64,000 bases of DNA, taken from contig NZ_FOGP01000003.1 in the NCBI RefSeq assembly GCF_900111255.1, positions 62,001-126,000 on the forward strand, in the 5' to 3' direction. Both the position numbers and the translations under genes were made by a program. Shown piece after piece: positions 8,013 to 53,582 of the stretch. How positions within the stretch are numbered: the stretch's first letter is position 1; each line of letters begins with the position of its first letter. This DNA is from Parafannyhessea umbonata. Its GTDB lineage: Bacteria; Actinomycetota; Coriobacteriia; Coriobacteriales; Atopobiaceae. Below the pieces are notes generated by a model. It was given only the letters and a program-made list of their open reading frames with translations, did no database searches and was not told the origin of the DNA.

Positions 8013-9416
8013 TTAGAAGTCGGCGTTGCCCACGGTACGCGGGTGCGGCAGGACGTCGCGGATGTTGTCCATGCCCGTGAGGTACATGACCAGGCGCTCG
8101 AAACCCAGGCCGAAGCCGGCGTGGTGGCAGGTGCCGTAACGACGCAAGTCAAGGTAGTACTTGTACTGCTCGGCATCCATGCCCAGGTCCTCGATGCGCT
8201 TCTGGAGCACGTCCAGACGCTCTTCTCGCTGGGAGCCACCGATAATCTCGCCGATGCCGGGAACCAGGCAGTCGGCGGCGGCAACGGTCTTGCCGTCGTC
8301 GTTCATGCGCATGTAGAACGCCTTGATGGCCGCAGGGTAATCCGTCACGAAGGTCGGCTTCTTGAAGTGCTCCTCGGTCAGGAAGCGCTCGTGCTCGGTC
8401 TGCAGGTCTACGCCCCACTCGACGGGGTACTCGAACACGTGGCCGGCAGCCTGGGCGTCCTGCAGGATCTTGATGGCGTCGGTGTAGCTGACGCGCGCAA
8501 AGTCGCTCGTGGCGACGTGCTGCAGGCGCTCCCTCAGGCCCTTGTCCACGAAGCTGTTGAACATGTCGATCTCGTCGGGACAGCGCTCCATGACGCGAGA
8601 GATGACGAACTTGAGCATGTCCTCAGAGACGTTCATCTCACCCTCGAGGTCGCAGAAGGCCATCTCGGGCTCAACCATCCAGAACTCGGCGGCGTGACGG
8701 CGGGTGTTGGAGTCCTCGGCACGGAACGTGGGGCCGAAGGTGTAGATGTCGCCGAAGCTCATGGCGAAGTTCTCGCCCTGGAGCTGGCCCGAGACGGTGA
8801 GGTTGGTCGCCTTGCCGAAGAAGTCCTTGCTGTAGTCGACCTTGCCGTCCTCGGTCAGGGGTGGGTTGGCGGGGTCGATGGTGGTGACGCGGAACATCTC
8901 GCCGGCGCCCTCGGCGTCAGAGGCAGTGATGATCGGCGTGTTGACGTAGACGTAGCCGCGCTCCTGGAAGAACTGGTGGATGGCGAAGGCCGCCACGGAG
9001 CGGACGCGGAAGACCGCGCGGAACAGGTTGGTGCGGCTGCGCAGGTGCTGCTGGGTGCGCAGGAACTCGCGGCTCTGACGCTTCTTCTGCATGGGGTAGT
9101 CCGGCTGCGCGGCACCCTCGATCACGATGGTCTCGGCCTGGAGCTCGAAGGGCTGCGGGCGGTCGGGCGTGAGCGCGAGCCTGCCGGTGATGACGAGCGC
9201 GGAGCCAACGGTGAGGGCGGCGACGTCCTCGTAGTTATTGAGGGACTCACGATTCATGACGACCTGGAGGTCCTTGAAGCAGCTGCCGTCATTCAGCATG
9301 ACGAAGCCGAAGTTCTTCATGTCACGAATGGAACGGACCCAGCCGGCGACGGTAACCGTTGCGTCACCATACTGGTCCATCTGCGCATACAGCTGCGCAA
9401 TCTTGGTGAGGTCCAT
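8013..9416 (-). CDS. asnS: Asparagine--tRNA ligase
   Basis: 467 residues, [12 protein letters not shown], with AAAAGGAG upstream. An OB-fold anticodon-binding domain ([17 protein letters not shown]) comes first. The class II catalytic core follows with motif 2 ([20 protein letters not shown]) and motif 3 ([25 protein letters not shown]). The pattern distinguishes AsnRS from AspRS by its length and the absence of a GAD domain. It charges tRNA-Asn directly. It is monocistronic between a terminator and a divergent promoter region. Confidence 0.95.
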
Positions 9417-9691
9417 CTAATGGCTCCTTTTGCCGAGCGCGCGACTTCCGCCAAAGCCCTGCCGCCAGGGAGGGCAGGAAGGCGCACTTCCCTACTACAG
9501 TCCTGTAACCATATCTCAAATGGGGCTCTTCCGACCACGTCAGAGCACATGCAAACCCAACGTCCATCTGCGGGAGGAGAACATGGACGCATGATGGCAC
9601 GCCCTTCTCGCCCACGCGGATGGGAGGAGAGTGGCATATAGTACGAGAATCAAACGAGAAGGGCATGCGCCCACAACACGAGGAGGCAGCC

Positions 9692-10195
9692 TTGGCCTGC
9701 AACGCAACGACGGAGACTCCGGTTCTGGACATGAGCGACTACAAGATCCTTGCGGCCCAGGTCCGCGCACTCGCCGAGGAGGACGCCCACTGGGCACCCG
9801 TGCTCTCCAACGCCTCGGCGCTCGTGATGGAGACGCTTCCCCGGCTCAACTGGGCCGGATTCTACCTGGTGCGAGACGGCCAGCTGGTGCTCGGGCCCTT
9901 CCAGGGCAAAGTCGCCTGCGTCCATATCGCGCGCGGCCGCGGCGTCTGCGGCACCGCATGGGAGCAGGACCGCGCCCAGCACGTCCACGACGTGCACGAG
10001 TTCCCGGGTCACATCGCCTGTGACAGTGCCTCGAACTCCGAGGTCGTCGTCCCCCTGCACGCAAGCGGAGAGGTCGTGGGCGTGCTCGACGTGGACTCTC
10101 CCCTCGTCGGCCGCTTCAGCGACGTCGACGCAGAGGGCCTGGCCCTGGTCGCCCAGGCGGTCGAGGAGGTCGCGGACTTCTCGGACCTGCGATAA
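9692..10195 (+). CDS. Free methionine-(R)-sulfoxide reductase (GAF domain)
   Basis: 167 residues. I chose the TTG start at 9692 because AGGAGG lies six bases upstream. The single GAF fold has NWAGFYLVRDGQLVLGPFQGKVAC, GRGVCGTAW and HEFPGHIACDSASNSEVVVPL. The three cysteines used by fRMsr enzymes (VACVHI, GVCG, ACDS; Cys84/94/118 in E. coli YebR) are all present. The enzyme reduces free Met-R-sulfoxide and so repairs oxidised methionine. No partner gene is adjacent. Confidence 0.9.
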   Translation: MACNATTETPVLDMSDYKILAAQVRALAEEDAHWAPVLSNASALVMETLPRLNWAGFYLVRDGQLVLGPFQGKVACVHIARGRGVCGTAWEQDRAQHVHDVHEFPGHIACDSASNSEVVVPLHASGEVVGVLDVDSPLVGRFSDVDAEGLALVAQAVEEVADFSDLR

Positions 10196-43118: not shown

Positions 43119-43820
43119 CTAGCCAAGGCCGTACTTCGCAACCACGCGTCGAATCGACCTTCCCCACGGCAGCCAGATGGCCAGCAGAAAGCCCACCGTG
43201 GAGACGCCATGCAGCACGTCGAGCGGAAGGCCGGCGGCAAACGCCGCGAGCACGGGCGCCCACTCGAGCGGACGGACGAAGCCCAGAACGTGCCAGCCGT
43301 TGAGGATGAGGCCATAAAGCAGCGCCGAGCAGAAGCCGTACGCGCAGAGGGCCGGTCGGCTGTCGAGGGCATGGTGGTCGGAGAGCACGCCGGCCAGGTA
43401 GCCAACCAGGCCCCATGCGTACATCTGCAGCGGCGTCCAGGCCCCCTGCCCAAAGAAGAAGTTCGAGACCAGAGCGGCAAGTGCGCCGACCATGAAGCCG
43501 CAGCGGCGTCCCAGGGTCGCGCCGGCGACGATGGCAATGGCCGAGACGGGCTTCACGTCGGGAAGCGGTGCGAAGGCCACGCGTCCGGCCGCGGCGACGG
43601 CCGCCAGTGTCGCAGTGGGCATGACCTGGCGAAGCGTGGGACGGCTCCTCTCGAACGAGCGGAAGAACAGCCCCAGGCAGAACAGGACGACAAGCAGCAC
43701 CAGACCCGCGGTCGCCTCGACTTGAAGGTACGCGCAGCAGAGCATCGCCACGAGGGGGACCAGAAGCAGAAGCGGCCCGAGGCGGTCGAGCGCAGAGGGA
43801 TTCGCGCGTGGCTCGCTCAT
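43119..43820 (-). CDS. ECF transporter S component (substrate-specific subunit)
   Basis: 233 residues with about six helices, from the ATG at 43820 that overlaps the ATPase stop (ATGA). The layout (helices, a GATLGRRCGFMVGALAALVSNFFFGQGAWTPLQM segment in two blocks, then further helices) is that of an ECF S component. It gives substrate specificity; the ligand is unknown. It is the last gene of the operon. The longer frame up to 44447 is an artefact of the ATPase gene. Confidence 0.85.
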   Translation of the reverse strand: MSEPRANPSALDRLGPLLLLVPLVAMLCCAYLQVEATAGLVLLVVLFCLGLFFRSFERSRPTLRQVMPTATLAAVAAAGRVAFAPLPDVKPVSAIAIVAGATLGRRCGFMVGALAALVSNFFFGQGAWTPLQMYAWGLVGYLAGVLSDHHALDSRPALCAYGFCSALLYGLILNGWHVLGFVRPLEWAPVLAAFAAGLPLDVLHGVSTVGFLLAIWLPWGRSIRRVVAKYGLG

Positions 43821-45253
43821 GCGCCCCACACCCAAGACTCGTCGAAGAAGCTCCGGGCATCCTGGGTCAGGGATACCTGACCGTCGAACAGCAGCGAGCA
43901 GCTGGTGGCGACCACCCTCGCGAAGGCGACGTCGTGGGTCGCGACGAGCACCGCACAACCGGAGCGCGCGGCATCGCGAACGCGGGTCGCGACAAGGACG
44001 CGCGCGGCATCGTCCAGCCCCTTGGTCGGCTCGTCGAGCAGCAGAAGCCGAGGGCGCGTGAGCAGGACCTTCGCAAAGGCCAGAAGCTGCTGCTGGCCAC
44101 CTGAGAGGTCGTAGGGATGGCGACCGAGCGCCGACGCGAGGCCGAGCGCCGAGGCCAGGGCGAGCGCCTCGTCGCGCCCGTAGCCGGAGGCCGACCACTC
44201 CATCAGCTCCGCCTCGACGGTCTCGCGCGACAGCAGGGCCTTGGGAGACTGCGGCAGGTAGGCCTGCGAGCGAGAGAGGGCGTTGCTCAGACGCCCGCGC
44301 TGCAGCCGCGCGATTCCGGCAACGGCCATGAGCAGCGTCGACTTGCCCGAGCCGTTCCCGCCCACGAGGGCGCGCACTTCTCCCGCGCGCAGCGACAGAT
44401 CTGCCGAGCGCAGCACCCAGCGGCCATCGCGCTCGTAGCGGTACCACGCGTCGCCCAGGCTGACCCTAAGCTCACCGGAAGGCTCCGCCAGCCCATCGTC
44501 GCCAATGCGGCCGAGAAGGCCATGCCCCCCGCGCAGGGAGCCGAGCTCCACCTGGCGGGGCGCCCCGCCCTCCATGCGGAAGGCGGTCGTGGCGTAGTCG
44601 ACCATCGCCTGGGGGGCGTGCGTGGCCACGACCACGGTCACGCCCAGCTCGCGATTGACCCTGAACAGCAGGGAGAGGAAGCTCTTCTCGGCAACGGGGT
44701 CGAGCATCGAGGTCGGCTCGTCCAGAAGCAGGAGGCGCGGGCGCATCACGAGCGCCGAGGCGAGGGCGAGCAGCTGGCGCTGGCCGCCGGACAGCTCGGC
44801 ACAGCGTGCGTGGAACCACGGCTCGATGCCAAAGAAGTAGCAGGTCTCGGCTATTCGCCGGCGCATCTGGTCCTGGGGGACGCCGAGGTTCTCGAGGCCG
44901 AAGGCAAGCTCGTGACACACGCTGTCACACACGATCTGGTTGTCGGGACTCTGGAACACGTAGCCGACCGAGCGCGCGGAGGCCATGGGGTCGAGCTCGT
45001 GCACGTCGCGCCCCAGCACGCGGACGGTGCCGCGCATGCTTCCCTCGGGGGCGATCTCGGGCTTGCACAGGCGCATGAGCGTGGTCTTGCCCGAGCCCGT
45101 GTCGCCCACCAGCAGCACGAACGCGCCTTGCGGGACGGTCAGGCTCGCGGAGCAGATGACGGGCTCCGGCGACGGTGCGACCTCGGCTGCGGCATAGGAG
45201 AAGCCCAAGCCGTCCAACTGGAGCGCGGGGACTTCCCCGCGAGACGATGCCAC
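43817..45253 (-). CDS. ECF transporter fused double ATPase (A-A')
   Basis: 478 residues from a GTG at 45253 with AGAGGA upstream. First ABC domain: Walker A GDTGSGKT (near 50), signature LSGGQRQ (near 153), Walker B LLLLDEPTSMLD. Second: GGNGSGKS (near 297), LSGGQQQ (near 381), LLLLDEPTKGLD. Such fusions replace separate EcfA1 and EcfA2 proteins in actinobacterial ECF transporters. It powers uptake with the T and S proteins on either side. Confidence 0.92.
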   Translation of the reverse strand: MASSRGEVPALQLDGLGFSYAAAEVAPSPEPVICSASLTVPQGAFVLLVGDTGSGKTTLMRLCKPEIAPEGSMRGTVRVLGRDVHELDPMASARSVGYVFQSPDNQIVCDSVCHELAFGLENLGVPQDQMRRRIAETCYFFGIEPWFHARCAELSGGQRQLLALASALVMRPRLLLLDEPTSMLDPVAEKSFLSLLFRVNRELGVTVVVATHAPQAMVDYATTAFRMEGGAPRQVELGSLRGGHGLLGRIGDDGLAEPSGELRVSLGDAWYRYERDGRWVLRSADLSLRAGEVRALVGGNGSGKSTLLMAVAGIARLQRGRLSNALSRSQAYLPQSPKALLSRETVEAELMEWSASGYGRDEALALASALGLASALGRHPYDLSGGQQQLLAFAKVLLTRPRLLLLDEPTKGLDDAARVLVATRVRDAARSGCAVLVATHDVAFARVVATSCSLLFDGQVSLTQDARSFFDESWVWGA

Positions 45254-45285
45254 GTTTTCCTCTGTTGTCAAGCAAGACCCCACGG

Positions 45286-46182
45286 CTACCCCAATCTGTT
45301 CCAGCGAAGGCGCTCCGCCAGCGCAAGGACGCTCGGCAGAGCCATCAGCACGGCGTAGGGCGCATAGCCCCACCACGGCTCGAGCGTGGGAAGCTGAGGG
45401 TAGAACCGCCACTCCCCCACGGCGACGATGGCCAGCACGACGTTTGCGCCGACCATCGCGGCGAGCGCCGATGCATACAAAACGTCACGCGAGCGCAGGA
45501 GCTCCGTCCGGTAGTGGCTCCGCGCGGACGTTGCACCCCAACCCCGGGCGCGCATCGCATCTGAGCGCTCAAGTGAGTCCTCCATCGCCCATGACATGAG
45601 CATGGTCGAGCTGCGCACGTACGAGCCCAGTCGCGCACGGCCGGACGCGGACGGCTGGCCGCCGCCTCCGGAGGCGGTGCAGGCGTCGAGCGCAGACGCG
45701 ACCAGCGCGTGGCGCCTCAGCAGCTGCGGAAGCAGCTGGACCGCCATCGAGACCATGGTCCCCACCACAGGAAGGCGCCGCCCCGCCATGCCCATGACGC
45801 GATCCTGGGTCAGCACGCAGGTCGCGTTCGAAACCCACTGCAGCATCGAAACGAGCATGCCGCCCATGCACGCCCCGAACGCAAGCGGCTCGAGCTTGAG
45901 GGGCAGGGGCCCCAGCCACGCGAGGGTCGTCGCGCCAGAGCGCGAAAAGAGCGGGTTGACCAGGCAGACGAGCATCACCAGCGGGGCCTGCCAGGCAAGG
46001 CTGCGCCCGACGGCCCGCCACCCGCGGCAGCAGCCCCCGAACAGGAGCGCCCCGACCACGGACAGCAGGACGTAGACGGGCTGCAGCACGAAGATGCCCA
46101 GGCCAATGGTGCCGACAAAGTAGACGGCCGGAACCACAAGGTGGACGCCTTCGAAAGCCGTCTGTCCAGAGCGTCTGCCCAA
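45286..46182 (-). CDS. ECF transporter T component
   Basis: 298 residues from a TTG at 46182, with GGGAGG seven bases away. Several helices and the coupling motif DAMRARGWGATS (the Ala-Arg-Gly signature that docks on the ATPases) identify EcfT; a partner ARG/coupling helix sits before it (LRRHALVASALDA). It couples ATP hydrolysis to the S component. It lies 13 bases after the DUF4430 gene. Confidence 0.9.
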   Translation of the reverse strand: MGRRSGQTAFEGVHLVVPAVYFVGTIGLGIFVLQPVYVLLSVVGALLFGGCCRGWRAVGRSLAWQAPLVMLVCLVNPLFSRSGATTLAWLGPLPLKLEPLAFGACMGGMLVSMLQWVSNATCVLTQDRVMGMAGRRLPVVGTMVSMAVQLLPQLLRRHALVASALDACTASGGGGQPSASGRARLGSYVRSSTMLMSWAMEDSLERSDAMRARGWGATSARSHYRTELLRSRDVLYASALAAMVGANVVLAIVAVGEWRFYPQLPTLEPWWGYAPYAVLMALPSVLALAERLRWNRLG

Positions 46183-46195
46183 CGCAGCCTCCCGC

Positions 46196-47353
46196 CTACA
46201 CGTAGTTCCACGCGACGGAGTCGCCGTCGTGAAGCACGTACTCGTCGCTCATCACGCTCGGAAGCGTGCCGCTGACAGTGTAGGTCCACCCGTGCGCGCT
46301 GTCCTGCCCGAGCCCGTTGATGGCCGTGACCCAGGTCCCGCTGCCCGTGCGGTTGGCACCGCCCTCCACGGTGGCACCGGTAGCGAGCAGCGCCGCGTAG
46401 GCGCTGGCCCCCTTGGGAACGCTCACGCGATGCGAGGCTCCGTTGATGCTGACGGAGACCGTCATGTTGCCCCGCTCAGCAGCCGCCGCGGGCCCGTCGG
46501 CGCCGGACGTGGAGGAAACGCCCGCGGAAGCCGCACCAGAACCCGACGCGACGGCCTGCGCAGAGCCGCCCTCGGAGCCGGCCGAGACCGACGACGCGCG
46601 ACCGACCGCGACCTCGTCTCCGGAAGGCAGCCGGGGCGCGTCGCCCTTGGCGGCCGAGAAGGACACGTCGCCCAAGGCCGCGAAGCACTCGGAATCGATG
46701 GCATAGCCGCTCGCCGCCGCCATGACGTCGGCCGTCGTCGCGTCGGACGCAAGGGCGGCCGCACTCGAGGAGTCAAACGACATGACGACCCGCACGACGC
46801 CGGACTCGTCCTCCGAGATCCAGGTGACGGGTGCCGCGATCCCGCGCCCGTCAATCCAGCGGGCCAGCGCCGCGGTGCGCCTGGCCGTCGCGTCCACGCG
46901 CGCAACAGGCTCGCTGCCGTCTCGCTGCTCGACCCAAACGCCAGCAGAGTTCACGACGACCTGGACGTCCTGGGAGAGCGAGACGTCCTCCCCGTCGCAG
47001 CTCAGGTCGCCAAGCGCCGCAAGAACGTCGTCGCGGCCAATGGCGCACCGCGAGCCATCGTCATCCGCGCTGGGAGCCGCGTCCACCGCGGCCTGGGTCG
47101 AGGCGGAACCCGAAAGCGGGGCCAGGGGATCCTTCCCCTGCGCATACTGGCTCATCGACCAGGCGCTCAGGGCAATCAGGACGGCGGCAAGGCAAAGCGT
47201 CGCCATGCGCGCAGCGCCCAGGCCGCACCTTCCCCCGGGATCTCGGCTGGGGCCGCCCCCAGCCGAGATCCCCTTTGAGGGGTCACGGCCCTCCGCCAAG
47301 GTCCCCCTGTCGCGAGCGGCGGTGTTCGCCGCCTTGAAGTCCGGCTCTGCCAT
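46196..47353 (-). CDS. Membrane-anchored DUF4430 protein
   Basis: 385 residues. A basic N-terminus, then one helix (MATLCLAAVLIALSAWSMS, about 50-68) and an exported remainder. The middle is low complexity (Ser/Ala/Gly-rich, about 245-290). The C-terminus (about 295-385) is a DUF4430 domain: VSVPKGASAYAALLA, GSGTWVTAINGLGQDSAHGWTYTV, DGDSVAWNYV. DUF4430 is related to the C-terminal domain of vertebrate cobalamin carriers. It starts two bases after the giant surface gene. I infer a ligand-binding partner of the ECF transporter. Confidence 0.8.
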   Translation of the reverse strand: MAEPDFKAANTAARDRGTLAEGRDPSKGISAGGGPSRDPGGRCGLGAARMATLCLAAVLIALSAWSMSQYAQGKDPLAPLSGSASTQAAVDAAPSADDDGSRCAIGRDDVLAALGDLSCDGEDVSLSQDVQVVVNSAGVWVEQRDGSEPVARVDATARRTAALARWIDGRGIAAPVTWISEDESGVVRVVMSFDSSSAAALASDATTADVMAAASGYAIDSECFAALGDVSFSAAKGDAPRLPSGDEVAVGRASSVSAGSEGGSAQAVASGSGAASAGVSSTSGADGPAAAAERGNMTVSVSINGASHRVSVPKGASAYAALLATGATVEGGANRTGSGTWVTAINGLGQDSAHGWTYTVSGTLPSVMSDEYVLHDGDSVAWNYV

Positions 47354-47355
47354 CG

Positions 47356-50300
47356 CTAGTCCTCCTTACCCTTGCCGAATCCGAGCAGAGAGAACGCCAC
47401 GGCCGCAACGCCCACGCACACGCCGGCAAGCGGCCAGGCGGGAAGCTTTGCCAAGCCGGCAAGGGGGGTCGCGTCGTCGGCACTGCCCTGGTCGTCGTCC
47501 GCACTGGACTCGCTCGTCAGAAGTCCCTCGCCAAGCTGGCCACCCAGGAGGCCGGACTCGCTTGCGTCCAGCAGTCCGCCACCCAACAGGGCGCCCCGCC
47601 CCGAGGCAGGCGCGTCCGACGCGAGCGAGAGCTCGCCGCGGGCCGCATGCAGGGGCCCGACGGCGCCATTCGTCACTCCATGCGGGGACTCCGTCGCGCC
47701 GCCCCGTTCGGCGCCGCCCGCAGCCCCGTCAGTCGTGCCGGCACCATTGCCCGGCTCGACAGACGGCCCGGGCAGTTCGCTGCCGGCGACAACCTTGAAG
47801 AGGCTTCCGGAGTCGTTCACGTAGTACAGGCTGCCGTCGGCCGCCGCAACGACGCTCGACATCGCGTAGTTCTGGCGCGTGGTCTCCGGCCTGAACAGGA
47901 GGGTGGCGCACTTCTCCCCCAGCTTGTAGACGTAGATGCCGCCGGGACGGGCGTTGCTCGTGAAGTAGACGTAGGTGCCCGCGCCCCGCCTGGCCACCAG
48001 CGGAGCGCTCTTTACGTCGCCCGCGATGGCGCCGTCGGCCGTCGCGGTCACGCTCTGCTCGACCGACAGCGTCTTGGCGTCGATGACGTAGAGGCCACCC
48101 GTGCCGCCCACGCGGCTGGAACCCCCGCCCACGTAGACCTTGCCATCCGAGAGCGTCGGGGTGGAGGTGCTCGCCTGGGCGAACCTGACCGAGCCCACGG
48201 GCGCGAGCGTGCCATCGACGGCGACGCTCACCTTGTGGAGCACGCCGTCGGTGGTGACCACATAGGCCTCGGAGCCATCGGCGCTCGTCACGACACCCGA
48301 GCGAGAGGGGCTTCCCAGCACGAGCTTCGAGACGATCTTCCCGGTCGAGGCGTCGCGCAGCGCAAGCGCCCCCGTATCGTCCGCCACGAGGATGCCGGCC
48401 CGCACGCTCGCCGCGCCGGACCAGTAGTAGCCCGACCCCTCGGACTCCACGCTCCAGCGCACGGAGCCCGTGGCGAGGTTAATGCTCATGAGGTAGCCAC
48501 CGAGCGAGGAACCCGTAAACGACGCGGCGGTCGTGCCGAGGTAGTAGTACCCGTCACGCACGAGCGGCGTGGAGATGGACTGCTGGGAAACGCCGCCCGA
48601 CTGCGGAAGGGCATCGGTCAGCCAAACCGTCACGAGCTTGTCGGCGGTCAGGGCCTGAACGCGGCCGTCATGGAGCGGCACGATCACCAGGCCGTCGGCG
48701 TACGCCAGGCGGCAGGTGGACTCGACGCGCTCCGCCAGGTCGGCCTGACTCTTGATGGCACCGGTCGCGGCATCGCGTATCTGCAGCTTGCTGCCGGCAG
48801 CAACGTAGACGTCGCCGTTGACGACGATGGGGTCGCTCATCCAGGTGGCCATGCCCGACGCAACGAGGTCCCGTGCCCAGGCGAGGCCGGAGCCCGTGGT
48901 GGGCGTGTCGGCCGCACTGGTTCCGGATCCGTCGCTTCCCTTGTAGGCACCCCACTCGGCCTGGTAGTCGGGACGGGGGGCCGAGGGGTCAACCGTTACG
49001 TCGCCCTGGGGAAGGCCGGAGCCATAGGCCCCGTAGCACCACTCGATGCGATCACCCGGCTTGACCACGTAGCTGGAGGCGTACTCACTGGAGAGCTCAC
49101 CGTTGATGTAAAACTGCCACCACGACCAGTTTCCGTCGGCAGCCTGCGTGGCACCCAGCGATTGGGTCCCGTTGGGAAGGGTCTGGCCAGCTTCCCGCGA
49201 GCTGATGGTGTACATGCCCTCATCGCAGGTCATGCCGTTACGCTCGAGCGCGATCTTGGTAAGCTCGGCCGCGGTCGTCCCCTCAGGAACGCTGACCTCG
49301 CTCTGCCCCACCCAGGAGGTGTCCGAGCCCGAGGCGTTGGGTCCGACGACCTTGACCGAGGCTGTGACCTTGTTCTGGTCGGATGGCTGCTCGCCGTAGG
49401 CGGAGTACACCCAGCTGACGCTCATGCCATCGGTCAGCTTCACGGCGTCGGCACCTAGGTCGGAGGCCTTGCCGTTCACGAAGAGCTGCCAGTACTTGCC
49501 CGTCGTCGCGTCGTAGCCGTAGGTCTTGCCCGTGGTGAGCGACGTGACCGAGTCGAGGTAGAAGCCGTAGGCCGTATCGTAGCTCACGTAGCTGAGCCCG
49601 GCCTTCTCGAGCATCGCCTTGGTGAGGTCGGCAACGGTCGAGCCGGCCGGCAGGCTGTAATCCTCTGCGGATGCCCAGACCTCGGGCGCGCCGAAGGAGT
49701 CGATGCCCACGACGGAGGCCGTGGCGGCGACGTCGGGCGATTCCTTCTCCGTAGTCCCCAAGACGGTAAGAACCGTCTTGACCTCTCGCCCTGCCAGGGT
49801 CTTCAGCTTTGCCTTCAGGGCATCGGAGAGCTGGGGGTCATCCTTGTAGCGATCGTAATACGCACCGTAGCGCTTGCTCCTGAGGTTGGAACGCACCGTG
49901 ACGCTGGTGTTGTAGGCGGGACGCGTGACGCGCAACGTCTCGTTGCTCACGACGGAGGAGTTGCTCGAGGCGAACGTGCGGCCCTGGTCGCTGGAACCCA
50001 TGGGGTCGTAGTCGGCGAGGTCGTAGGCGACTATGCCGCTGACCCCGTCGGCTGCAGACCTGGACGAGGCCCATCCGACCCGTCCCAAACCGTCAAGGTA
50101 GCCCTCCATGAAGGGATGCAGGTCCGAGGTGACCGCCGCGGGGTCCTGCCCGCCCAAGAGGCGCTCGGGATAGGCGGCGGCGACCTCGTCCATAAGAGAG
50201 AGCTCGTCGTCAAGCGCTCCCAGAGAAAGCGGGCGCAGGGTGAGCGAAAGCGTCTTGGAGACGCTGCTCGAGGGGTCGTCCCTAAGCGCAACCGTGCAGG

Positions 50301-52302
50301 TGATGTCCACCGTCTGGTCGCTTGCCCCAGCAAGGGGGCGCCACACGTTGGCGCGGTATCCACTGATGGTCACGGCCTGGTTGGAGGCCTGGTAGCTCAC
50401 CTTGACGTCGAAGTCGAGAGAGCGCGTGCCCAGAGTTCGGGTGGTCGGCAGCTGGATGTCGCCCGCCACCGACTGCGGGTCGAACGCCCCGTCGGAAGAG
50501 TTGGAATACGAGAGCGACGCGTAGGCGTAGTTCTGGTCGAGCAGCTGCTGGACCTCGGCAAGGCGATGCTGGCTCAGCTGCGGGTCGCCCTTCACAGTCA
50601 GCTGGAAGTCCCTCGTGACGCTGACGTCAGGCATGCCGTAGCGAGAATAGCTGACGATTGCGGTCAGCGTGACGGGCCTGTCCTCGGAGCTCGCCCTGGG
50701 CGTCGCCTTGGTCTCGTCGTCCCAGGAGTAGCCGCTGAGCGCCAGGGCGTCCTTGTCGGAGCTACTCCACTCGACCTTCACGCCATCCGCAAGCTTGTTG
50801 GGAAGCGAGAACCCCTGCGTCACCGCGGCAGCAGAGTCGCCCTGCGCAAGGGAGAGCCCCATGCCGTCCGCGGCCTCGGAGAGCTCCTGCGACATTGCCT
50901 CCTTGTCCCAGTCGAGCTGGACCCACCTGCCCGGCGTATACCAGGCGGTCGCCGTGCCGTAGCCCAGCCTGAAGGTGGGCTTGATCTGGCGCAGGGCCGA
51001 GTAGTCGGTCGACACCGTCTTGTCCGACGGGCTCAGCGAGAAGAACGTGACGTCTCCGTTGTGCTCGGAGCCCGTGTCGATGCCGCCCCGCTGCTTGGGA
51101 TCGGGGTCCGCCGTGTGCGCCACGGACTCCGTGACGACCGTGACGCCCGCGAAGCGCCCGTCCAGGGAGGCGAGCTCCGCGGAGACCATGTCATTCGCGT
51201 TGGAGTCGGCGCCATAGGCGGGGCTGGGGCAATAACCGCTGTAGCCGACGCCCTGAAGTGCGGACACGGCATCGGCAAGAAGGGCCTCGTCCTCCTCGCT
51301 GCCACGCGCCGCGACCGGGCCCAGCGTCGCAGACTCTACGACGTTGCGCGACTCGGCACTCACCCTGAGGTACTTGCCGACCAGGTCGCTACCGATGGTA
51401 AGGGTTCGCCCAGTCGCCCCCGCAATGGGCAGGTAGTTGCCATCCGCAAGGCCTGCAGCCAGCCACTGGTAGCCAACGGAGGCATCGGAGCCGACGCTCT
51501 TGGTTCCGCCCCAGCTCGTCGCGACGAACGCGTCCGCGCTGACGGTCTCACCGACCTTGGCAGTTCCGGCGGCGCTCACGCCCGAGAGCTCGGCCTTGCC
51601 GTCGGTCACCTGGCCGGTCGCGTACGTGCTCCAGACCTCCTTCGAGGAGCCGCCCGTTCCCGCGAACGTGACCTTGCATGCCAGGTAGAAGCCCGCGTCG
51701 GCATCCGTCGCCGCATACGTGCGCGCCGTCGCGCCGTCGATGGGCACATAGCTGTCGTAGCTTCCGCCATACATGGTTTTGCGCACGGTGCCTCGGTACC
51801 ACTGGAAGGCGTAGTCCGCATACGCGCTCTCGGGCGCGGCCTCCTCCTCGTCGAGGCCCCACTCGTCCTCTTCCAGGCTGTAGACGTTCGCCCTAAGGTT
51901 CGCGCCCACCGCTATGCCGGACGAGATGGCGGTCTCGGAGCCCTGCTCGTCAGCAATCTTCAGCGTGCTGGGCTCGACCGCAGCTGACGCAACGGCCAGG
52001 GCGCCACTTGCGGGCGACGCGGCCGGGACGGCCGGCGCGGCGCCCTGCGCAGGGGTGGCAGCAGTGACAGGCGCCTCGCCCTTCTTGCCTGCGATGCCTT
52101 CTGGCGACTCCGCGACAGCGCCCTCGCCGCCCTGTGCGTTCGCGTCCTGCGACGACTCGACCTGCTCGACAGCCGGCTCGCCTGGCGTTGCCTGGGCCGC
52201 CTCGGCCCAGGCGGTGCAGGGAAACTGCCCCGCGACCAAGGCAAAGCTCAGCGCCGCAGCTGCGGCGCCACGCGCGACGGAATGCGTTTTTTGGGATGAC
52301 AT
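47356..52302 (-). CDS. Giant surface protein with two DUF4430 domains and a beta-propeller
   Basis: 1648 residues from the ATG at 52302 with GAAGGG upstream. A signal peptide ends near residue 32 (PCTAWAEA). Repeated Ig-like or adhesion-type segments fill 170-850 (paired FQWYRG and YQWLAAG units, each followed by a GATARTY- or GATGRTL-type motif). Two DUF4430 domains follow (about 877-964 and 998-1094, ending VSWVYSAYG and IEWCYGAYG). A PQQ/WD40-like propeller occupies about 1145-1507. A Gly/Ser-rich stalk and a C-terminal helix (about 1618-1640) with KGKED end it. It is anchored with nearly everything outside. It leads the ECF operon. Confidence 0.85.
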   Translation of the reverse strand: MSSQKTHSVARGAAAAALSFALVAGQFPCTAWAEAAQATPGEPAVEQVESSQDANAQGGEGAVAESPEGIAGKKGEAPVTAATPAQGAAPAVPAASPASGALAVASAAVEPSTLKIADEQGSETAISSGIAVGANLRANVYSLEEDEWGLDEEEAAPESAYADYAFQWYRGTVRKTMYGGSYDSYVPIDGATARTYAATDADAGFYLACKVTFAGTGGSSKEVWSTYATGQVTDGKAELSGVSAAGTAKVGETVSADAFVATSWGGTKSVGSDASVGYQWLAAGLADGNYLPIAGATGRTLTIGSDLVGKYLRVSAESRNVVESATLGPVAARGSEEDEALLADAVSALQGVGYSGYCPSPAYGADSNANDMVSAELASLDGRFAGVTVVTESVAHTADPDPKQRGGIDTGSEHNGDVTFFSLSPSDKTVSTDYSALRQIKPTFRLGYGTATAWYTPGRWVQLDWDKEAMSQELSEAADGMGLSLAQGDSAAAVTQGFSLPNKLADGVKVEWSSSDKDALALSGYSWDDETKATPRASSEDRPVTLTAIVSYSRYGMPDVSVTRDFQLTVKGDPQLSQHRLAEVQQLLDQNYAYASLSYSNSSDGAFDPQSVAGDIQLPTTRTLGTRSLDFDVKVSYQASNQAVTISGYRANVWRPLAGASDQTVDITCTVALRDDPSSSVSKTLSLTLRPLSLGALDDELSLMDEVAAAYPERLLGGQDPAAVTSDLHPFMEGYLDGLGRVGWASSRSAADGVSGIVAYDLADYDPMGSSDQGRTFASSNSSVVSNETLRVTRPAYNTSVTVRSNLRSKRYGAYYDRYKDDPQLSDALKAKLKTLAGREVKTVLTVLGTTEKESPDVAATASVVGIDSFGAPEVWASAEDYSLPAGSTVADLTKAMLEKAGLSYVSYDTAYGFYLDSVTSLTTGKTYGYDATTGKYWQLFVNGKASDLGADAVKLTDGMSVSWVYSAYGEQPSDQNKVTASVKVVGPNASGSDTSWVGQSEVSVPEGTTAAELTKIALERNGMTCDEGMYTISSREAGQTLPNGTQSLGATQAADGNWSWWQFYINGELSSEYASSYVVKPGDRIEWCYGAYGSGLPQGDVTVDPSAPRPDYQAEWGAYKGSDGSGTSAADTPTTGSGLAWARDLVASGMATWMSDPIVVNGDVYVAAGSKLQIRDAATGAIKSQADLAERVESTCRLAYADGLVIVPLHDGRVQALTADKLVTVWLTDALPQSGGVSQQSISTPLVRDGYYYLGTTAASFTGSSLGGYLMSINLATGSVRWSVESEGSGYYWSGAASVRAGILVADDTGALALRDASTGKIVSKLVLGSPSRSGVVTSADGSEAYVVTTDGVLHKVSVAVDGTLAPVGSVRFAQASTSTPTLSDGKVYVGGGSSRVGGTGGLYVIDAKTLSVEQSVTATADGAIAGDVKSAPLVARRGAGTYVYFTSNARPGGIYVYKLGEKCATLLFRPETTRQNYAMSSVVAAADGSLYYVNDSGSLFKVVAGSELPGPSVEPGNGAGTTDGAAGGAERGGATESPHGVTNGAVGPLHAARGELSLASDAPASGRGALLGGGLLDASESGLLGGQLGEGLLTSESSADDDQGSADDATPLAGLAKLPAWPLAGVCVGVAAVAFSLLGFGKGKED

Positions 52303-52466
52303 GACCGACCCTTCTTGTTCCGACTCTTCCAGAACAGAGGGCAGGCAGGATTGGAAGCCAGGAAGGCAACCACTCTGGCCAGCGCCGCGGCGAGGCGAGC
52401 GGACGGCGCAACCGCATCGCCAGCTCCGCATGGGGCCGACCACCTTTTGAGCACAGTACACGCTGA

Positions 52467-52483
52467 TCCGGAGTCGAACCGGA
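52467..52483. other. tRNA T-arm-like hairpin upstream of the DUF4430 operon
   Basis: On the minus strand TCCGG-TTCGACT-CCGGA has a perfect five-base stem and a seven-base loop matching the tRNA T-loop consensus. I cannot build an acceptor, D or anticodon arm around it, so it is not a tRNA gene. It may be a relic of a 3' tRNA end (attachment site) or chance. Confidence 0.3.
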
Positions 52484-52544
52484 ATCCTTTTACCTAGGCC
52501 TACGAGCTTTGGACCATGCCCTCATTATTTAAACTGGCATGATT

Positions 52545-53582
52545 CTAACAGCACGAACGGCGAGATGAGGCGCGCGGCACAAGTTCTACGGGCACGGTCT
52601 CGCACGATCCGCACGCTCCCTCCTCCCCCGCGATCATCGCGAGCATGAGAGAGGCGGCGCGCTCCCCCATGAGCAGGGGGTTCTGGCGCACCGTTGTCAG
52701 CGGAGGCCTGCCGAAGCGGGCAATAAGGATGTCGTCGTGCCCGACCACCGCAACGTCCTCCGGAACGTGCAGCCCATGGTCGCGCAGGGCTTCGAGGGCG
52801 CCCATGGCCAGGCGGTCCGTCTGGCAGAACATGCCGTCGAACGGAACGTCGCCGGCAAGCAGGCGCTCCGTCGCCGCATACCCCTCGTCGAAGCCCGTGG
52901 CCTTGGGGCAGATGACCAGCCTTGGGTCGAGCGCGAGACCGCGCCGCCCAAGCTCCGTCTCGAAGCTCTCCGTGCGACGAGTCCCCACCGGGTCGTGGCG
53001 GGTGGCCGAGACGAGCGCGAGGGACCTGCAGCCGCCCGAGACCAGCTCGTCTGCGGCAAGGCGTCCGCTCTCCCGGTTGTCGGAGCACACGAACGCGCAG
53101 ACAGAGCCGCGCTCGAGCGCGGCCCTCTGGCTTTCGGGCGCCGCATCGATCAGCACCACGGGAACGGACGAGTCGAGGGCGCCACGCACGTCCACGGTCG
53201 GATTGGAGCAGACCACCCCCGAGACGCGCTGGGCCGCAAGCTGCGCGTGGCTCGCACGCTCCATCTGGGCGCAGTGGTTGGTGTTGTAGATGCTCAGCGA
53301 GTAGCCCGCCTCGAAGAAGCGCTCCTGAAGGGACAGGATGAGCGTCGAGAAGAACTCGTTCGAGATGTTGGGAACGACCACGCCGATGGCGCTGGTGCGG
53401 TCTTGGCGAAGCCCCTTGGCCATCTGGTTGGGACGGTAGTCGAACTTCTTTATGGCCGCGCGCACACGCTGCTCCGTCGCCTTCGAGAAGCGGCCGTTCT
53501 GGTTGATGACGCGCGACACGGTGGCCACCGAGACGCCCGCCTCCCGCGCGATGTCGCGCACCGTCGCCCTCTTGCCAGCCAT
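52545..53582 (-). CDS. LacI-family transcriptional regulator
   Basis: 345 residues, MAGKRATVRDIAREAGVSVATVSRVIN, with the helix-turn-helix in the first 25 residues and a periplasmic-binding-like ligand domain after it. The hinge and YRPNQMAKGLRQDRTSAIGVVVPNI are typical. The ligand-domain end (AVVGHDDILIARFGRPPLTTVRQNP) resembles sugar-binding members. It is followed by the DUF4430 operon in the same direction and preceded by a perfect palindrome, so autoregulation is likely. Confidence 0.92.
   Translation of the reverse strand: MAGKRATVRDIAREAGVSVATVSRVINQNGRFSKATEQRVRAAIKKFDYRPNQMAKGLRQDRTSAIGVVVPNISNEFFSTLILSLQERFFEAGYSLSIYNTNHCAQMERASHAQLAAQRVSGVVCSNPTVDVRGALDSSVPVVLIDAAPESQRAALERGSVCAFVCSDNRESGRLAADELVSGGCRSLALVSATRHDPVGTRRTESFETELGRRGLALDPRLVICPKATGFDEGYAATERLLAGDVPFDGMFCQTDRLAMGALEALRDHGLHVPEDVAVVGHDDILIARFGRPPLTTVRQNPLLMGERAASLMLAMIAGEEGACGSCETVPVELVPRASSRRSCC

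Follow-up and report, generated by a model that had tools for sequence, protein, structure and literature searches.

What is imported by an energy-coupling factor (ECF) transporter that is encoded together with two exported DUF4430 proteins? The question is raised by a minus-strand operon of Parafannyhessea umbonata (Atopobiaceae, Coriobacteriales), located in a stretch of 64,000 nucleotides (contig NZ_FOGP01000003.1, positions 62,001 to 126,000 of the forward strand) that we refer to as the window. The operon consists of five open reading frames (ORFs) encoding a giant exported protein, a second DUF4430 protein, EcfT, a fused EcfA-A' ATPase and an S component (Table 1). An earlier reading made from the letters alone (the sequence-only reading) had proposed that these proteins capture a vitamin-like ligand at the cell surface and deliver it to the transporter, and had left the ligand unnamed. 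The direction of that proposal holds, and the ligand can now be specified: because the profile of the S component matches CbrT and cobalamin riboswitches are found upstream, we propose with good confidence that it is cobalamin or a close corrinoid. The locus is very probably a cobalamin-repressed operon for the uptake of cobalamin (or a corrinoid), in which DUF4430 proteins would capture the vitamin, a CbrT-type transporter would import it, and MetH would use it.

The operon is predicted to encode a complete ECF transporter with a CbrT-like S component

When the ORFs were checked, the order, strand and spacing of the five genes agreed with the sequence-only reading, including an ATGA overlap shared by the S and EcfA-A' genes. 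The proteins that it had listed were also borne out, namely a 1648-residue giant with two DUF4430 domains and a beta-propeller, a membrane DUF4430 protein, EcfT, a fused EcfA-A' and an S component.

The S component gave weak Pfam matches to ECF S-component families. A profile built from 32 relatives (A3) matched chain A of 6FNP, the CbrT protein of Lactobacillus delbrueckii, over nearly the full length of the chain (E = 5e-16), and the next-best S components were HmpT (4hzu_S, E = 0.019) and RibU (E = 0.17). By this comparison, the protein appears to be far closer to CbrT than to the S components for hydroxymethylpyrimidine or riboflavin. The AlphaFold model (predicted local distance difference test score, pLDDT, of 93) displayed the S-component fold, with 4hzu_S (Z = 17.4) ranking at the top of the structure comparison together with some 20 further S components. 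Since 6FNP was absent among the Foldseek matches listed for this model, the assignment to the CbrT family is based on the sequence profile. In the model, a six-helix S core at residues ~60-230 is preceded by a two-helix N-terminal extension; these two extra helices are kept in close relatives.

EcfT had no match in Pfam and was therefore tested with a family profile built from 22 relatives (A4), which matched the solved EcfT chains 5d3m_D (E = 6.4e-14), 4hzu_T and 4huq_T, with E values ranging from 6e-14 to 5e-12. The fused EcfA-A' protein carries two ABC_tran domains, and its best NCBIfam match was TIGR04520 (ECF ATPase), below the curated cut-off of that model. As judged from these matches, the operon encodes a complete ECF transporter, energising module included, for which ATP-driven transport is predicted.

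CbrT was predicted in 2009 and demonstrated in 2018; ECF-CbrT accepts both cobalamin and cobinamide as transport substrates, with no competition from hemin (PMC5997447). The L. delbrueckii transporter (6FNP) has in common with the window the S family, EcfT and the ECF ATPases. Its gene cluster is given as nrdJ-cbrS-cbrT-pduO, with no exported proteins described in the accessible text (PMC5997447), whereas in the window the energising module and two exported DUF4430 proteins belong to one operon.

A divergent cobalamin riboswitch precedes the operon

The sequence-only reading had seen no cobalamin riboswitch, and the RF00174 model gave no match on the window or on the rest of the genome, even at a permissive threshold (E ≤ 10); the element described here falls below the Rfam gathering threshold for that family. 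A comparison of leader regions in Atopobiaceae revealed a common element, GAGGGCAYGG...CCGGUU...CCGG..CAGC...ACUGUG...CUGCCUGCCCUC, which can be aligned with two canonical RF00174 elements (L090 and L091; ~1e-20). A covariance model (R1, from alignment A1) was built from 14 Atopobiaceae elements, two of them RF00174 matches, with the window excluded. This model detected an element immediately upstream of the giant gene with 54.4 bits (E = 2.3e-8 across 18 sources), so the earlier statement was wrong, and a divergent form is present. On the whole genome this element was the sole match (E = 1.4e-7). R1 also detected the RF00174-positive L064, which was not in its training set, and found one element per genome in 68 of 121 Atopobiaceae genomes. 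Across 28 R1 matches, pairs were kept in 95.8% of the cells and 10 pairs were doubly changed, a result equalled in 0 of 500 shuffles, although the pairing count is inflated because the alignment of these matches was fitted to R1. The window element is, by these comparisons, a homologue of RF00174-positive elements, with the same position and a common pairing, and it is predicted to bind cobalamin and to regulate the operon. It shares with RF00174 a homologous core and a location ahead of B12 genes, and differs from it where the sequence runs from the ACUGUG segment to the outer stem's 3' arm, a stretch that is reduced or divergent. The single-sequence fold of the leader was unremarkable (z = −1.08).

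A TTCGA loop upstream of the giant gene was considered as part of a tRNA and rejected, as ARAGORN finds none; the loop belongs to a stem-loop of the riboswitch core. By eye, a TAnAmT-like −10 hexamer was recognised ~27 nucleotides upstream of the riboswitch in the window and in relatives, and transcription of the operon is therefore probably driven by a separate promoter that overlaps the last part of lacI. This neighbouring gene (52545-53582, minus strand) encodes a LacI-family regulator and its stop codon lies 22 nucleotides before the riboswitch; it had no match within the operon loci of 40 relatives and was dropped as a part of the operon.

The association with cobalamin riboswitches extends to other genomes. 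Among the 150 Coriobacteriales genomes searched, 33 contain an RF00174 match on the same strand within 14 kb upstream of the S gene. In 37 further genomes, mainly from Clostridia and Bacilli, for which contig identity was deduced from coordinates and strand, RF00174 was found on the operon strand of the examined stretch in 32, mostly right before the first operon gene. Within one Atopobiaceae genus, the R1 variant also stands at the head of an operon for the cobalt chelatase CbiK, a FecCD permease, CbiG and further cobalamin synthesis proteins; this was seen in two genomes, G116 (where CbiD and CbiJ were also identified) and G224. A genome search of G116 revealed neither an S component nor DUF4430; G224 was examined at the riboswitch locus only. 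Every variant locus that was opened had cobalamin uptake or synthesis genes downstream.

The exported proteins carry domains related to transcobalamin

In the giant, Pfam matched DUF4430 in two stretches and also identified a propeller and repeats of the atrophied Ig type (aBig_2); the protein begins with a signal-like segment and ends with a hydrophobic anchor. The second protein has a single DUF4430 near its C-terminus. In both, PF14478 scored above its cut-off and export-type N-terminal hydrophobic segments are visible in the sequence, and no DUF4430 was found elsewhere in the genome. In transcobalamins, DUF4430 forms the C-terminal domain (PMC4350170). The best PDB match of a profile of giant-type domains (A5) was transcobalamin-2 (5no0, E = 0.0069), and a profile of the second-protein type (A6) matched 3u7z (E = 8.5e-5) and, weakly, transcobalamin-1 (4kki, E = 0.092). 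The transcobalamin matches are weak singly and agree together, consistent with a kinship between DUF4430 and these proteins; the relation to vertebrate cobalamin carriers on which the sequence-only reading had built was thus correctly recognised.

A structure model covering residues 870-1500 of the giant showed in the first DUF4430 domain a helix (21-32) followed by two strands (35-41 and 44-51), the second domain being less clear. The modelled region thus appears to display the helix and beta-hairpin insert described as ligand-contacting (PMC1796856). The propeller superimposed on YxaL (7dxn) with Z = 39.0 and a root-mean-square deviation of 2.1 over 332 residues. Kinship of the propeller with BtuG was considered and set aside, as YxaL/BamB-type proteins matched best; no BtuG was present among the matches listed, and a relation may still exist. 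The surface BtuG/BtuB system of Bacteroides (PMC6143338, PMC10404256) likewise includes a propeller protein that sits at the surface and is encoded in a locus for cobalamin uptake, an analogy only: the protein of the window has a YxaL/BamB-type propeller and a membrane anchor, belongs to a Gram-positive-type cell and has no TonB-dependent partner of the BtuB type in its operon.

Transcobalamin, intrinsic factor and haptocorrin have the C-terminal DUF4430 beta-grasp domain in common with the window proteins (PMC4350170). In transcobalamin and intrinsic factor, this domain is joined to an alpha/alpha-toroid, whereas the window proteins have Ig-like repeats and a propeller instead. At one related locus (L051), the giant is replaced by an exported protein (8389-9948, plus strand) with DUF5648 and a weak match to the squalene-cyclase/prenyltransferase toroid, and its gene sits upstream of a DUF4430 gene, placing a toroid beside DUF4430, as in transcobalamin.

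DUF4430 genes and the transporter genes occur together

Of the 110 loci with sufficient flanking sequence, 91 have a DUF4430 gene adjoining the genes for EcfT, EcfA, EcfA' and S (T-A-A'-S), and the order DUF4430-T-AA'-S is kept in Coriobacteriia, Clostridia and Bacilli. The 150 Coriobacteriales genomes divide into 110 with both S and DUF4430, 4 with S only, 8 with DUF4430 only and 28 with neither (Fisher p = 4e-19, a value that overstates the association because kinship was not corrected for). With DUF4430 restricted to the operon in the P. umbonata genome, the linkage in 91 loci and the co-variation among genomes, the five-gene set is not a chance run. In two Atopobiaceae genomes, the DUF4430 gene is located elsewhere with its own cobalamin riboswitch upstream.

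Several variants of the arrangement were observed. At four Collinsella-type loci (L196, L199, L202 and L203), the genes for the giant and the second DUF4430 protein stand together as a pair, apart from T-A-A'-S. At two others (L050 and L190), one short DUF4430 protein replaces both exported proteins, which means that the relay, should it exist, could consist of a single step. More distant S components accompanied by DUF4430 genes were found in L068 and L069 (genomes G037 and G047), the former with an adjacent XdhC gene; these S components could have another specificity.

The distribution bears on the alternative that this is a cobalamin ECF transporter whose DUF4430 neighbours are wall or adhesion proteins, or holders of host B12 carriers, that share only its regulation. 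Such a role would suit a giant rich in Ig-like and propeller modules, the separation seen in Collinsella-type genomes, and the fact that ECF-CbrT of L. delbrueckii requires no exported protein in vitro (PMC5997447). However, it accounts poorly for the tight linkage and genome co-occurrence, for the two genomes in which the DUF4430 genes moved along with a cobalamin riboswitch of their own, and for the kinship that links DUF4430 with the transcobalamin domain contacting cobalamin, and we regard it as unlikely, though the strongest of the alternatives.

The genome looks like that of a cobalamin auxotroph

The single protein with a B12-binding domain in the genome is MetH, which has domains for homocysteine, pterin and B12. 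Family searches of the genome found neither MetE nor CobS, and one TP-methylase. Corrin-making organisms carry several TP-methylases. Because MetH is present, MetE and CobS were not found and there is one TP-methylase, the genome looks like that of a cobalamin auxotroph, a pattern drawn from four family searches in an assembly that is 99.8% complete.

This pattern also concerns the ligand, which might be an incomplete corrinoid (cobinamide or cobyrinate diamide) or a cobamide other than cobalamin. The transport of cobinamide by ECF-CbrT (PMC5997447) and the uptake of cobyrinate diamide listed for CbrUVT (PMC8123684) agree with this idea. Nevertheless, in a genome without CobS and with one TP-methylase, an incomplete corrinoid could not be completed by the usual route, which makes this option improbable, and it would still be a B12-type ligand. 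Heme, our first idea for the ligand, would be imported as by Staphylococcus lugdunensis LhaSTA or the L. sakei Lsa1836-1840 locus, which is reportedly an ECF heme importer, and the giant has a weak match to the Cytochrom_D1 propeller. Although ECF heme transporters exist (PMC7299338), heme was dropped as extremely improbable because the S profile matches CbrT, with which hemin does not compete (PMC5997447), and because the operon is preceded by cobalamin riboswitches in genomes of different phyla.

Table 1. Positions of the operon, its domains and the riboswitch elements (window coordinates unless a locus is named)
Feature	Coordinates	Strand	Details
Giant exported protein	47356-52302	-	ATG start, 1648 residues
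Giant DUF4430 domain 1 (transcobalamin C-terminal-like beta-grasp)	49402-49644	-	Pfam PF14478
Giant DUF4430 domain 2	49030-49146	-	Partial Pfam match, C-terminal half; full domain extends upstream
Propeller, eight-bladed YxaL/BamB type	47803-48915	-	Model me95d120ad372, pLDDT 85
Second exported DUF4430 protein	46196-47353	-	385 residues, N-terminal membrane anchor; DUF4430 at 46202-46411
EcfT membrane subunit	45286-46182	-	298 residues; conserved R-G motif (R213-G214)
Fused EcfA-A' ATPase	43817-45283	-	Two ABC domains; GTG start ~45283 or nearby
S component, predicted CbrT (cobalamin) family	43119-43820	-	233 residues
Divergent cobalamin riboswitch (predicted)	52337-52523	-	187 nucleotides; 35 nucleotides upstream of the giant ATG; starts 22 nucleotides past the lacI stop
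Variant riboswitch heading CbiK/BtuCDF-like/Cbi operon	L185 9946-10093	-
Variant riboswitch heading CbiK/BtuCDF-like/Cbi operon	L193 380-504	+

Proposed route of cobalamin uptake

For a cobalamin uptake operon, we propose the following route. At low intracellular cobalamin, the leader riboswitch would permit expression of the operon. The giant, held by its C-terminal hydrophobic segment, would extend through the wall and bind cobalamin with its paired, transcobalamin beta-like DUF4430 domains, the propeller serving as a scaffold or docking platform, and the membrane-anchored second DUF4430 protein would gather the vitamin or relay it at the membrane. Cobalamin would then be taken over by the CbrT-type S component, EcfA-A' acting via EcfT would power its delivery into the cytoplasm, and the imported vitamin would be used by the cobalamin-dependent methionine synthase MetH. 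Sequence analysis shows the operon itself, the identities of its subunits, the kinship with CbrT, the riboswitch, the co-occurrence and, to the extent that four families reveal it, the pattern of auxotrophy. We infer the direction of riboswitch control, the binding of cobalamin by DUF4430 and the order of hand-over; that the DUF4430 proteins would pass B12 on to the S component is plausible.

Several observations weigh against this interpretation. ECF-CbrT of L. delbrueckii functions in liposomes and in E. coli without exported partners (PMC5997447), and these are therefore not strictly needed for that CbrT. The single matches between DUF4430 and transcobalamins are weak (E from 0.007 to 0.09), and the toroid, which forms the remaining half of the binding site in transcobalamin, had no family match in either DUF4430 protein at E ≤ 0.1, so the window proteins are not transcobalamins in the strict sense. 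The riboswitch of the window is without parts of the canonical element, so that its preference for cobalamin is a prediction. Of the 37 further loci, 5 have no RF00174 match in the stretch, and in a few of the other 32 (for example, L142 and L183) the match lies outside the operon leader. The sequence-only reading had also considered that S components regularly found without DUF4430 genes would speak against it; 19 of the 110 T-A-A'-S loci have no adjacent DUF4430 gene, but in several of these genomes, mainly of the Collinsella-type family, DUF4430 genes are located elsewhere, mostly as the giant plus the second gene. Lastly, both the binding and the transport of cobalamin by the operon proteins are predictions from sequence comparison.

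A more specific version of the proposal, which we advance tentatively and at somewhat less than even chances, is that the ECF transporter, instead of simply capturing the vitamin by itself, receives it from transcobalamin-like DUF4430 proteins that form a relay at the surface, the system being controlled by a reduced Atopobiaceae class of cobalamin riboswitch. This class would lack some elements of the canonical ligand core, and its preferred ligand may be one particular cobamide.

Relation to earlier predictions and biological meaning

In 2007, Burroughs et al. described exported bacterial SLBB/transcobalamin-like proteins in operons with CbiO/CbiQ-like genes and predicted that they scavenge B12 (PMC1796856). 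Those operons resemble that of the window: they encode exported multidomain proteins with SLBB/DUF4430, including one fused to a propeller, together with another SLBB paralogue, a CbiO-like ATPase and a CbiQ-like membrane protein, and their hosts are described as not synthesising B12 (PMC1796856), as appears to hold for P. umbonata. The accessible text of that study gives no CbrT identity for the S component and mentions no riboswitch (PMC1796856). What the window contributes is an S component of the CbrT family, extended by two helices at its N-terminus, and a riboswitch variant that RF00174 does not cover. The operon is thus of the kind predicted in 2007 and experimentally untried in the literature searched: our search, which covered few subscription papers, found no experimental test of such transcobalamin-like proteins. 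Within its reach, the CbrT identity of the S component of this operon, the riboswitch linkage across phyla and the Atopobiaceae riboswitch variant invisible to Rfam are new, the reduced variant being the freshest part.

These results provide a concrete ligand for a widespread partnership between an ECF transporter and bacterial relatives of the human B12 carriers, in gut bacteria that have to win cobalamin from competitors and from the host. As the Rfam cobalamin model misses a family-level variant, B12 regulation is under-annotated in Atopobiaceae. If the relay is real, the general rule by which ECF transporters work without an extracytoplasmic carrier would have a broad exception, and the bacterial origin of vertebrate transcobalamin, proposed in PMC1796856, would gain a functional counterpart.

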